Below are positions 46,733 through 50,426 of a stretch of DNA of 64,000 bases, piece after piece. Source of the stretch: Dehalococcoidia bacterium (GTDB taxonomy: Bacteria; Chloroflexota; Dehalococcoidia; Tepidiformales; Tepidiformaceae); contig PQAO01000024.1 of NCBI GenBank assembly GCA_003104995.1, positions 62,001-126,000 of the forward strand, written 5' to 3'. Made by a program: the position numbers and the translations under genes. Every line of letters starts with the position of its first letter. Position 1 is the stretch's first letter. The notes under the pieces are model-generated. The model saw nothing but the letters and a program-made list of their open reading frames with translations. It was not told the DNA's origin and ran no database searches.

Positions 46733-47959
46733 ATGGCCATCGCCGAAGCATCCGCCCCAACCGAGTTGGGCCTCGATCCCACCCGTCTGGGCTACCTCGA
46801 CGCTCACCTCAAGGGGTACGTCGACTCTGGCAAGATGGCCGGGACCCTCGCCCTCGTAGCACGGGGCGGAGAAATCGGACACCTTGCGGCGTACGGGCTG
46901 GCCGATCGCGAACGCAACAAGCCCATGGCGCGCGACACGATCTTCCGGATCTACTCGATGTCCAAGCCGATCACCTCGATAGCGCTCATGCAGCTGTACG
47001 AGCGCGGCCTCTTCCAGGTCGACGACCCGGTGGACAAGTACATCCCCGAGTGGAAGAACCAGCGCGTCTATGTGATGGGCAACGGCCCGGCGATGGTGAC
47101 GAAGCCGGTGACGCGCCCGATGACCATCCGGGACCTGCTCTCGCACCAGTCGGGGCTCACCTATGGCTTCCTCGAACGTACGAACGTCGACGCGATGTAT
47201 CGAAACAACGGCATCGGCCAGATCGAGACGCGCGGCACCCTGCGCGAGATGGTCCAGGCGCTGGCGGAGTTGCCCCTGGAGTTCTCTCCGGGCGACGCCT
47301 GGAACTATTCGGTCTCGACCGACATCTGCGGCTACCTGGTCGAGGCGATCAGCGGTCAACGTTTCGATGACTACCTCCAGGCAAACATCTTCGGCCCGCT
47401 TGGCATGGGCGATACCGGCTTCCACGTCCCGCAGGCGAAAGCCCACCGGCTGGCTGCGAACTACGGTGTCGCCCCGGACGGCATCCGCCTCATCGATGAC
47501 CCGGCGACAAGCACCTACCTCACGCCGCCCACCTTCCTTTCCGGCGGGGGCGGGCTCGTCTCGACGATCGACGACTACCTGGTGTTCTGCCAGGCGCTCG
47601 TCAACGGCGGCGAGGTCAACGGCACGCGCATCATCGGGCGGAAGACGCTCGAACTCATGACCTCGAACCACCTGCCGGAGGGCAAAGACCTGGCCGCCCA
47701 CGCCATGGGCCGCTGGGCCGAGACGACGTTCTCCGGGATCGGGTTTGGGCTCGGATTTTCGGTGACGCTCGACCCGGCGAAGTCGCAGATCTCGGGTACT
47801 CCGGGCGAGTTTTCCTGGGGCGGCGCGGCCAGCACGGTGTTCTGGATCGACCCGATCGAGGACCTGGTCTTCATCTTCATGACGCAGTTGATGCCATCGT
47901 CGCACTACAACATCCGGCGGGAGCTGCGGGCGATCGTGTACTCGGCCCTGGCGGACTGA
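46733..47959 (+). CDS. Serine hydrolase, class C beta-lactamase/esterase family (2)
   Basis: The 408-residue enzyme carries the SxxK motif YSMSKPITS (about residues 77-83), the Tyr motif YSVSTDI (about 195) and the late [13 protein letters not shown] in place of KTG/HxG. It is an EstB-type carboxylesterase or peptidase-like hydrolase without a signal peptide. TGGAGGA lies 8 nt before the ATG. Only about a third of it resembles the family member at 41.3 kb, so they are old paralogues. A REP-like repeat starts at its stop codon. Confidence 0.92.
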
Positions 47960-48011
47960 CGGCCGGATCTATGTTTCCGGGGGTTTGGAGCGGCTGGGAA
48001 AGCACTTCGAC
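47956..48011 (+). repeat. REP-like element A
   Basis: The stretch CTGACGGCCGGATCTATGT, then CCGGGGGTTTGGAGCGGCTGG and ACTTCGAC-like sequence, is shared with element C at 48671-48756 with few changes. It begins at the stop codon of the hydrolase gene. Same orientation as C and D. Confidence 0.8.
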
Positions 48012-48099
48012 ACCGCGGCCGTTTACCGTCAGGGTGGGCCGGTGTGCGAACGATGACCTATCTTCCGCACGTCCTCCGGCTGCCGTAGCGTTCCCACCA

Positions 48100-48540
48100 A
48101 TGGGATTCCGTAACCTGTCCGCCGAAGAGATCGACCTCGTGCTCGACAAGGAGCGCATTGTCCGCATCGCGTTTGCCGCCGATGGCGAGCAGTTCGTGGT
48201 GCCCGTGTTCTACGCCTGGTACAGCGACACGCTGTGCGGATTGACCACCCCCGGCCGCAAGACGGCCATGGCCGCGCGGAACGCGGACGTGGGCTTCCAG
48301 GTCGACAGCACGGTCATGACGGGACCGTGGGAGTGGGCGAGCGTGGTGGGGCAGGGCACGTTCGAACAGGTAACCGACCCGGGGGAGTACGGCCCGTTCG
48401 CGGCTGTACTCCAGAGGAAGCTCGTGGATGCGCCGCGGTGGGCGGCGACGATGCTCCAGGCGCGTTTCGAGGAACTGGGGGTGTATGCGTGGCGGATCAG
48501 GCCGGCCAACCTCCACGGCCGCGCCCACGGACCGGAGTGA
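48100..48540 (+). CDS. PNPOx-like FMN-binding split-barrel protein
   Basis: The 146-residue protein is a pyridoxamine-phosphate-oxidase-like barrel: LSAEEIDLVLDKERIVRIAFAADG, FVVPVFYAWYSDTLCGLTTPGRKTAMAARNADV. The GRKTAMAARN segment, after the third strand, is typical of the FMN-phosphate contact in this group. It is not close to the pair at 7.5-8.4 kb. A TAGCGT box ends 8 nt before the ATG and no RBS is visible. Boxed in by REP-like elements on both sides. Confidence 0.88.
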   Translation: MGFRNLSAEEIDLVLDKERIVRIAFAADGEQFVVPVFYAWYSDTLCGLTTPGRKTAMAARNADVGFQVDSTVMTGPWEWASVVGQGTFEQVTDPGEYGPFAAVLQRKLVDAPRWAATMLQARFEELGVYAWRIRPANLHGRAHGPE

Positions 48541-48574
48541 AGGCGCTCTTGGATCCGAAAACCGGCCGCCGCCC

Positions 48575-48606
48575 GGGCACATAGATCCGACCGTCAGGGA
48601 GGTGCG
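48575..48606 (-). repeat. REP-like element B (inverted)
   Basis: This is the core CACCTCCCTGACGGTCGG plus ATCTATGT on the minus strand. Together with element C it forms a pair of inverted REPs about 85 bp apart, as in REP doublets. Confidence 0.85.
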
Positions 48607-48670
48607 CTTTCGGCACGCCCGGGACGCTGGCCATCCAGGCATGCTGAGCTTGGGGCCGGATGTGGACGCG

Positions 48671-48756
48671 AGGGGTGGGAGCGACATCGCACCTCCCTGA
48701 CGGTCGGATCTATGTCGCCGGGGGGTTTGGAGCGGCTGGAGCAGTACTTCGACAGG
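48671..48756 (+). repeat. REP-like element C
   Basis: The 86-bp unit holds AGGGGTGGGAGCGACATCGC, then the core CACCTCCCTGACGGTCGG, then the GGGGGTTTGGAGCGGCTGG tail shared with element A. Its first 47 bases are repeated exactly at the start of D, giving an 86-bp tandem period. Confidence 0.88.
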
Positions 48757-48809
48757 AGGGGTGGGAGCGACATCGCACCTCCCTGACGGTCGGATCTATG
48801 TCCCCGGGA
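48757..48809 (+). repeat. REP-like element D
   Basis: Direct tandem copy of C, identical over the first 47 bases and then ending in CCCCGGGAG 10 bp from the stop codon of the tyrosine transposase gene. Confidence 0.88.
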
Positions 48810-48818
48810 GTGGTCAGG

Positions 48819-49340
48819 CTACATCTCCGTGGTCCACCGGAGGCCGCCAATGTCCGGGCCCTGGCCTTCCAGCACGTACGTTGCTGCGTCGAGGATGTCG
48901 CGCTCGGTCCAGAGGTATCTTGTACTCCCGTGCCGTGTCCACACCTTCTCCTGGGAACCTACGAGCCGGGCTTCGCGGAGGCGGCGTGTTGCCCAGGACT
49001 TGAACGCGTTCATCATCCTTTCGGGCGTTGCGGGCCCGGACACGACGATGTGCACGTGGTTGGTCCGGACGTTGAGCGCATGGAGGCGCCAGTTGTGGTG
49101 TGAACAAACCCCGCGGGCGGCATCCGCGACAGCTTGGCGTTGTTCTCCATGGAGCGTCATCGCCGTCGAAAGCAGAACTTGCCGCTCGCGGCCCTCACGG
49201 CCCTGGTCTGGCAAGAGTTCGCGGACTCCCGCGCCGGCAGCGCGAAGCCGCTCGACCGAGCCGCGCTCGTCGCCGTGGAGGCGCTCACCGTAAGTCGTGA
49301 ACGTGATGAAGTAGCCTGCCGGGGAGTTGGCGTGGGTCAT
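48819..49340 (-). CDS. REP-associated tyrosine transposase (RAYT, Y1/HUH family)
   Basis: The 173-residue protein has the single HUH motif NHVHIVVSG (about 94-102) and a catalytic-type Tyr in DAATYVLEG (Tyr155) close to the C-terminus. The order and the YFITFTTYGERLHGD start are those of the TnpA_REP/IS200-like RAYT group. RAYTs nick and join single strands at REP sequences and are thought to spread REPs. REP-like elements lie on both sides (A-D downstream, E upstream), which strongly supports the pairing. A TTG two codons earlier is an alternative start. The gene appears intact. Confidence 0.92.
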   Translation of the reverse strand: MTHANSPAGYFITFTTYGERLHGDERGSVERLRAAGAGVRELLPDQGREGRERQVLLSTAMTLHGEQRQAVADAARGVCSHHNWRLHALNVRTNHVHIVVSGPATPERMMNAFKSWATRRLREARLVGSQEKVWTRHGSTRYLWTERDILDAATYVLEGQGPDIGGLRWTTEM

Positions 49341-49348
49341 ACCCAAAG

Positions 49349-49375
49349 GCCTCCCTTTCGGTCGGATCCACGGCC
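49349..49375 (+). repeat. REP-like element E (diverged)
   Basis: GCCTCCCTTTCGGTCGGATC matches the REP core CACCTCCCTGACGGTCGG with three differences. It lies 9 bp upstream of the transposase start, so the gene is bracketed by REP copies. Confidence 0.65.
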
Positions 49376-49385
49376 TGGCGGCGCG

Positions 49386-50426
49386 TTACACCGGGAGCCA
49401 GTAGAGCTTGCCGGCGCGCATCACCTTCGAGACGCGGCCGGTCTCGAACAGGTATTCCATGTGGGCGATCGTCTCGCCGACGGCGGCGCGCTGCATGTGG
49501 GCCTCGAAGTCGGCGAGAGAACCGGTGGCCCACTTGACTCTGCCGGCGACTTCCCACGCGGTCGAGCCCCCGCGGTCGACGCAGTTCACCATCTCATCGA
49601 GGCGGACTTTGTGGTGATCTTCGATTTCGCGGAGGCGCTTCTTGAGGTCGTGGATTTCGAATTCGTGCGCCGGGAGGACGATCTCGACATCCAGGTCTTC
49701 GAGGAGTTCGAGGGAGCGCATGTAGTCGCCGAGCGGGCTGCCGTGGGTCTGGGCGTGGATGCTCACGTTGGGGGTGATGGTCGGGAGCACGTGGTCGCCG
49801 GTGAGGAGGATCTTGCGGTTCGGCTCGTAGAGGCAGATGTGCCCGGGCGAGTGGCCCGGCGTCCAGATGATCTCGAAGTCGAAGTCGCCGACCTTGAACG
49901 TCTCGCCGCCCTTCACCTCGGTGTCGGCGGGGACCGGGGCCACGTTTCCAAGCATGCCCATCGAACCGCGGGCCATGGTCGGGGTGTCCATCGCGGGGAC
50001 GCCGTTGGTCTCCATGAATTTGCCCATCTCGTCCATCAGGCCTTTGGGGGCGAAGTAGCGGGCCGTGATGACTTCGGCGTCCTTTTCGTGGAGGACGATC
50101 TCGCAGCTGGAGAGCTGCTTCAGGCGTCCGGCCATGCCGTAGTGGTCGGGGTGGACGTGGGTGACGACGAGCTTATTGATGTCGTTGGGATGGGAGCCGT
50201 GCTCCTTCATCCCCTCTTCGAGGGCCTGGTAGGCGGTGTCGGTGTTCCAGCCGCAGTCAACCAGGACCGTGTCGTCCCCATCCTTGAGGAGGTAGGGGAG
50301 GACGTAGGGAAGGCCCTTGGTGACGCGGGGGTGCTCCTGGAGGTCGTGGCGGAGGGCCTTAGCGTCGGCGATGGTGAACTGGGGGAACGGCGTAAGCAGC
50401 TGGTAGATGCCGTCGATGATGCGCAT
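49386..50426 (-). CDS. MBL-fold metallo-hydrolase
   Basis: The 346-residue protein has the metallo-beta-lactamase fold: HxHxDH in VVTHVHPDHYGMAG (about residues 86-99), a second ligand His in IIWTPGHSPGHICLYE, Asp in LLTGDHVLP, and a later His in LPAHEFEIHDLKKRL. A C-terminal helical domain of about 80 residues follows, as in the lactonase/thioesterase-like LACTB2 subgroup. It should bind two zinc ions. Substrate unknown. It lies upstream (on the minus strand) of the REP-RAYT cluster. Confidence 0.93.
   Translation of the reverse strand: MRIIDGIYQLLTPFPQFTIADAKALRHDLQEHPRVTKGLPYVLPYLLKDGDDTVLVDCGWNTDTAYQALEEGMKEHGSHPNDINKLVVTHVHPDHYGMAGRLKQLSSCEIVLHEKDAEVITARYFAPKGLMDEMGKFMETNGVPAMDTPTMARGSMGMLGNVAPVPADTEVKGGETFKVGDFDFEIIWTPGHSPGHICLYEPNRKILLTGDHVLPTITPNVSIHAQTHGSPLGDYMRSLELLEDLDVEIVLPAHEFEIHDLKKRLREIEDHHKVRLDEMVNCVDRGGSTAWEVAGRVKWATGSLADFEAHMQRAAVGETIAHMEYLFETGRVSKVMRAGKLYWLPV

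Follow-up and report, generated by a model that had tools for sequence, protein, structure and literature searches.

A probable class-3 REPtron in a Dehalococcoidia genome and a candidate hairpin design for class-3 repeats across phyla

The closest described relatives of the locus analyzed here are the class 3 TnpA_Y1 enzymes, reported as rare and from Planctomycetes, Acidobacteria, and Proteobacteria in the main text of Quentin 2018 (PMC6006769). That text gives the class one paragraph and about two dozen sequences, lists its motifs in Table 1 (NHVH, W[TSA], and YV---Q in proteins of ~178 aa), describes its repeats as having "atypical secondary structures" and a CnGA foot, and suggests that the class may represent a step between selfish IS200 transposases and domesticated REP-associated tyrosine transposases (RAYTs) (PMC6006769). 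Biochemistry on class 3 was not found in the literature searched. The RAYTs of E. coli and Stenotrophomonas read one hairpin strand through a 5' tetranucleotide and irregular features, cut alongside it, and rejoin it, and the stem mismatch AA/GC of E. coli REPs is required by their RAYT (PMC8266576). GTAG REPs were already known in Chloroflexi from T. roseum in 2013 (PMC3733652) and class 3 was defined in 2018 (PMC6006769); thus, an earlier sequence-only reading of our locus, which held such a system to be undescribed in Chloroflexota, was too strong. For Dehalococcoidia, the literature searched makes no mention of class 3 and its repeats, which are apparently new there.

The locus lies in a stretch of 64,000 nucleotides (the window; positions 62001-126000 of contig C24) of G000, a 3.24-Mb draft genome in 39 contigs; labels C12 to C35 denote contigs of G000, and G001 to G004 are its congeners. 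Its near relatives are Dehalococcoidia MAGs, in agreement with the Chloroflexota host proposed earlier. The predicted RAYT gene lies between a metallo-beta-lactamase-fold gene and two genes that are beta-lactamase-like and pyridoxamine-oxidase-like, and it is surrounded by four good REPs (B-E) and a degenerate inverted pair (A/A').

47956..47981, minus strand: REP A, degenerate, with CTGACGGCCGGATCTATG on the plus strand, at the stop codon of the upstream beta-lactamase-like gene
47982..47997, plus strand: spacer motif GGTTTGGAGCGGCTGG adjoining REP A
48025..48040, plus strand: REP A', degenerate, ACCGTCAGGGTGGGCC, inverted partner of REP A
48572..48612, plus strand: REP B, hairpin core CC-GA-CC-GTCA-GG-GA-GG at 48587-48602, 5' foot TAGA(T)
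48682..48725, minus strand: REP C, core 48692-48707, opposite in orientation to REP B
48724..48739, plus strand: spacer motif GGTTTGGAGCGGCTGG adjoining REP C
48768..48808, minus strand: REP D, core 48778-48793, in tandem with REP C at 86 bp
48819..49346, minus strand: predicted class-3 TnpA_Y1/RAYT gene, 175 aa, likelier start ATG at 49340, Pfam Y1_Tnp
49350..49375, minus strand: REP E, core 49350-49365 (CCGACC-GAAA-GGGAGG), just upstream of the RAYT start

The RAYT reading frame is open, as first read, and its product matches Pfam Y1_Tnp (E 2.9e-8). It carries an HUH motif NHVH (H97 and H99, in RTNHVHIVV), a WT motif (W136, in VWTRHGST), and a Y motif Y157-V-L-E-G-Q162 that conforms to the Y----Q and YV patterns of class 3. 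Across 30 relatives, no variation was seen at H97, H99, W136, Y157, or Q162, nor at T15, G20, H24, or G25 of the extended conserved N-terminal region of class 3. A classical GTAG RAYT (class 2) would have Y---NP instead of YVLEGQ, together with a GT[AG]G foot, which is lacking here; a RAYT was recognized correctly at the outset, but it is not the classical gamma-proteobacterial kind and carries class 3 TnpA_Y1 motifs. By these motifs, the window RAYT is a predicted member of class 3 and a new locus for it. The window protein scored under the cut-off for both the NCBIfam REP_Tyr and IS200 models, and the same two models match the relatives. The best PDB fold matches of an AlphaFold (AF2) model (pLDDT 80.4, pTM 0.74) were IS200 TnpA (2f4f), which ranked top, and the E. 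coli RAYT-REP complex 4ER8; a sequence search matched no solved structure, the E. coli RAYT structure included.

The repeats corresponded in part to the five elements with one shared core that had been proposed. The exact 18-mer CACCTCCCTGACGGTCGG occurs in B (48587-48604, minus), C (48690-48707, plus), and D (48776-48793, plus) and is absent from A and E; REP E carries CCGACCGAAAGGGAGG at 49350-49365, and A matches CTGACGGCCGGATCTATG alone and forms, together with 48025-48040, an inverted pair that has decayed. A/A' is a decayed REPIN. The inverted pairing of B with C and the C/D period of 86 bp were both confirmed: the B/C arms (48569-48612 and 48682-48725) are 44 nt long, 89% complementary, and 69 nt apart, this pair is a REPIN, and the region folded as DNA at -59.6 kcal/mol. 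The window REPs have a lower stem of just 2 bp, and the bare core reaches -0.4 kcal/mol at standard energies. The proposed conserved tail GGTTTGGAGCGGCTGG was seen at A and C alone (47982 and 48724), and since both lie inside a 34-nt duplication, it belongs to a spacer common to the two rather than to the elements themselves; with two copies in all, it was rejected as a defining feature.

The core is not confined to this locus but dispersed genome-wide, with 29 sites when ≤3 mismatches are allowed, compared with 5 when the pattern is reversed. The 16-mer CCGACCGTSAGGGAGG at ≤1 mismatch had 16 sites in G000 (C12, C14, C24, C32, and C33) and none for the reversed pattern; copy counts come from searches of the genome and from selected stretches and, because G000 is a draft in 39 contigs, are lower bounds. 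The same search gave 38 sites in G002, 12 in G003, 14 in G004, and 0 in G001, with 0 for the reversed control throughout; the remaining relatives had 0-2, except G020, which had 21 in different variants and has its own class-3 genes. The repeats also showed an intergenic bias: across 20 sampled regions, 69 of the 76 copies lay outside genes predicted by a simple codon-usage gene caller (80% of bases coding), with a nominal 3e-40 that overstates significance because REP copies cluster. The repeats often form inverted pairs. One orthologous intergenic site is without a REP in G003, has an inverted REP pair in ~150 extra bp in G000, and has one REP and one C31-type REP in G004; its edges are too unclean to fix the exact insertion point. 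In region C32, relatives' contigs are broken or rearranged near the REPs. We also observed, on comparing L219 (G000 C32:118500-126500) with G001 and G002, that gene segments flanking opposed REP arrays differ in relative orientation, a hint of rearrangement close to REPs.

The RAYT locus is syntenic in G004, where the RAYT is 76% identical and the neighboring metallo-beta-lactamase 96.5%. Here and in G004 and G002 the active site is undamaged; it is lost in G003 alone, whose RAYT (L042/L110) is cut short near codon 113, where it is fused to REP B, and lacks Y157. Together, the G003 truncation and the G004 identities indicated that the RAYT gene can decay and evolves faster than most of its neighbors. 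The G003 fusion, via a deletion of ~400 bp, is a natural loss-of-function case. In G001 and G002, the metallo-beta-lactamase homology ends at window position 49387 and the RAYT is absent; as a clean empty site this leaves insertion unproven, because gene order on the other side differs.

G000 has five class-3 genes, the four others being 42-52% identical to the window copy and three of those four standing at contig ends. At least four of the five sit within their own repeat arrays (C24, C14L, C31, and C14R), the C35 gene, at a contig end, having been left out of this count. The repeats are as follows.

C24 (window) paralogue: CCGACCGTCAGGGAGGTG
C14L paralogue: CCGACCGTGAGGGAGGG
C31 paralogue: CCGAGGCGCGCCAGGGATGGCGCGC
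C14R paralogue: CCGAACCGCGACNGGCAGGGAGCGG

The window RAYT and C14L form one clade (support 96/80) and have a REP core common to both; their cores are related and their flanks different. With its own REP type, flanking REPs, and inverted pairs, the window RAYT has the organization of a REPtron, as the sequence-only reading had recognized, and the repeats occur in multiple copies in G000, as described for class 3 hosts. The C31 family (CCGAGGCGCGCCAGGGATGGCGCGC) is far larger than the window's own, with 85 copies at ≤3 mismatches in G000, and 31 and 18 in G004 and G003. It has Watson-Crick pairs where other families have a 2x2 mismatch, 73 of 75 loops are GGGA, GTCA, GGAA, GGCA, or GTGA, and the stem covaries too. 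High GC content produces many short dyads, and such repeats might be chance GC-rich dyads in a GC-rich genome; however, the copies in G000 number 16 (P1 core), 85 (C31), and 9 (C14R) against 0 for each reversed control, and the window 18-mer at up to 3 mismatches still has 3 sites against 0.17 expected from shuffles of the window. The controls refute this account, to which we assign a negligible probability. Five paralogues with distinct REP families offer a natural system for RAYT specificity and coexistence.

The window gene might instead belong to an ordinary IS200/IS605 insertion sequence, in which TnpA moves itself and the repeats are ends or internally deleted copies. In its favor are a Y----Q motif like that of class 1, the first rank of IS200 TnpA 2f4f among the fold matches, and REPs that flank the gene in a mostly inverted arrangement: around the class-3 genes gathered across phyla (below), the nearest upstream copy lies on the gene strand in 46/63 cases and the nearest downstream copy on the opposite strand in 46/60. 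However, near-identical copies of the window RAYT gene, as a multi-copy IS200/IS605 element would have, were absent from G000, where the four paralogues are only 42-52% identical, and the IS200 model match is under cut-off. In addition, tens of gene-free REPs are dispersed in pairs and arrays, and the locus is syntenic in G004 and also, with a truncated gene, in G003. We therefore consider an ordinary insertion sequence very improbable and favor a REPtron.

At E≤1e-10, the only class-3 match in a sample of 301 Chloroflexota genomes was the window's own genome, and class 3 was present in 13 of 37 genomes of the window's family, its own included. The single match in the 301-genome sample indicated that class 3 is, within the phylum, concentrated in the window's family.

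We addressed the hairpin design around class-3 genes with 80 loci gathered from named genomes, several hundred relatives having been found (448 hits). At distances up to 450 bp from the genes, hairpins with a GA/GA 2x2 internal loop numbered 117 (53 loci), 29-fold more than in DNA lying 1.5-4 kb off; GC/AA hairpins were 20-fold enriched, and the loops were mainly GTGA, GTCA, and GTAA (GTNA). An element with GA/GA, GC/AA, AA/GC, or GA/AA and a GNNA loop lay within 700 bp at 67 of the 80 loci. As this search imposes pairing, it was repeated with a sequence anchor and three pair positions left free. Pairing at the free positions reached 100, 97, and 88% of loci, whereas permuted data gave 58, 49, and 55% (p=0.0005 for each position, an optimistic value because related loci are non-independent); C-G, G-C, and A-T were all seen at two of the free pairs, and shifted control pairs gave no signal. 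Of 16 genomes from other groups that carry class-3 genes, 13 contained dispersed copies of the 14-mer CGACCGTNAGGGAG (4-338 per genome, control 0), so that the core, earlier called unusual, is not peculiar to G000. As the earlier reading had suggested comparing, REP stem distance tracked RAYT distance (Mantel r=0.42, p=0.0005), a correlation that does not separate co-evolution from shared descent. The window foot is YRGA-T, unlike the CnGA of the class 3 description, and the C31 and C14R feet are CCGA; among 65 named loci, CCGA, CAGA, and ACGA dominate, with CAGT/CCGT also present. The IS608 rule, by which a ..GA foot predicts a TC cleavage dinucleotide, was unsupported as a predictor because TC, though common beside the foot, is as frequent with ..GT feet as with ..GA.

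Side observations concerned individual loci. Across L108-L187 the mismatch switches among GA/GA, GC/AA, and AA/GC, sometimes around one gene (for example, L113 and L148). The mismatch element is missing from a minority of loci (L151, L187, L184, and L181), and at L187 the hairpins are instead paired throughout and carry a GTAA loop, like the C31 family.

The hairpin is built from a foot, a stem, a 2x2 mismatch rich in purines, two further pairs, and a GNNA tetraloop, and may be new as a cross-phylum design, possibly partly drawn earlier. The main text of PMC6006769 does not mention this design, but the figures and supplements of that paper may partly show it; a literature search with the core string gave no relevant paper, Rfam no relevant family for the repeats, and phage records no match. 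On balance, we lean slightly toward the view that class-3 REPs of Planctomycetota, Acidobacteriota, Chloroflexota, and further phyla belong to a single ancient substrate family with one recognition code: a foot [C/A]NG[A/T], a variable GC stem, a 2x2 mismatch (GA/GA, GC/AA, or AA/GC), two pairs, and GNNA. If so, AA/GC being common to E. coli REPs, mismatch readout either predates the split of class 2 and class 3 or is convergent. The stability of G.A pairs and GNNA loops is well known. Tandem sheared G.A pairs with a GNNA loop would give a hairpin undervalued by standard folding, which could explain the "atypical, weaker" structures, and this stability and the foot together point to the foot/GNNA strand as the probable active strand.

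Alternatively, the repeats could be regulatory RNA or DNA hairpins (terminators or mRNA stabilizers) serving the host, with RAYT proximity incidental. Their intergenic placement fits this account, as does REP E, which abuts the RAYT start and may cover the ribosome site. Against it, the anchor motif is enriched beside class-3 genes across phyla (0.95/kb near vs 0.03/kb far), REP type follows RAYT clade, and a conserved unpaired foot and mismatch are foreign to terminators; we hold this account to be very improbable. The REP E 3' arm GGGAGG, 9 nt before the ATG at 49340, resembles a Shine-Dalgarno sequence of the RAYT (window 49340-49366), and G004 and G003 have a REP at the equivalent position. 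By overlapping this putative ribosome-binding site, the REP E hairpin may dampen expression of its own enzyme, a form of self-regulation.

Taken together, the results suggest that the locus is very probably a class-3 REPtron, an HUH-Y1 single-strand endonuclease with the flanking REPs as cognate substrates. On one strand, each REP would form a hairpin whose foot (NNGA or similar) is followed by a GC stem, a purine-rich 2x2 loop with non-Watson-Crick geometry, two pairs, and a GNNA tetraloop. In single-stranded DNA, the enzyme would be expected to bind the hairpin via foot, mismatch, and loop; Y157 would nick beside the hairpin and then rejoin the strand, and REPs or REPINs would be copied to new intergenic positions, with the gene itself remaining in place. 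Binding, cleavage, and copying are inferences here, as is any benefit to the host. Because class-3 repeats have AA/GC, GC/AA, or GA/GA in the stem, we infer by analogy that class 3 may use the same kind of mismatch and foot readout as the E. coli and Stenotrophomonas RAYTs. Given so compact a hairpin design, the origin of genome-resident REP copiers from single-strand transposases could be tested directly with a single small protein and short oligonucleotides.

Compared with the class 3 REPtrons presented in the main text of PMC6006769, the locus is alike in NHVH, W[TA], YV---Q, several flanking atypical repeats, an NNGA-type 5' foot, and genome dispersal, but differs in its Dehalococcoidia host, five paralogues, foot YRGA-T, and 2-bp lower stem. 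It shares with the E. coli REPtron (TnpA_REP, class 2.2; PMC8266576) a single-strand hairpin, a 5' tetranucleotide, a 2x2 mismatch, and inverted REP pairs, and the E. coli mismatch AA-GC is one of the three types around class-3 genes; however, the E. coli system has the foot GTAG and YIHYNP and belongs to another sequence class, and the enzymes match by fold and not by sequence. The GTAG-23 REPs of Thermomicrobium roseum (Di Nocera 2013, PMC3733652) are from the same phylum but GTAG-tagged, with another foot. Finally, the IS200/IS605 transposases (IS608 and ISDra2) resemble the window enzyme in fold, HUH-Y1 chemistry, and the Y----Q motif, whereas the window gene has no multi-copy identical form and scores under the model cut-off.
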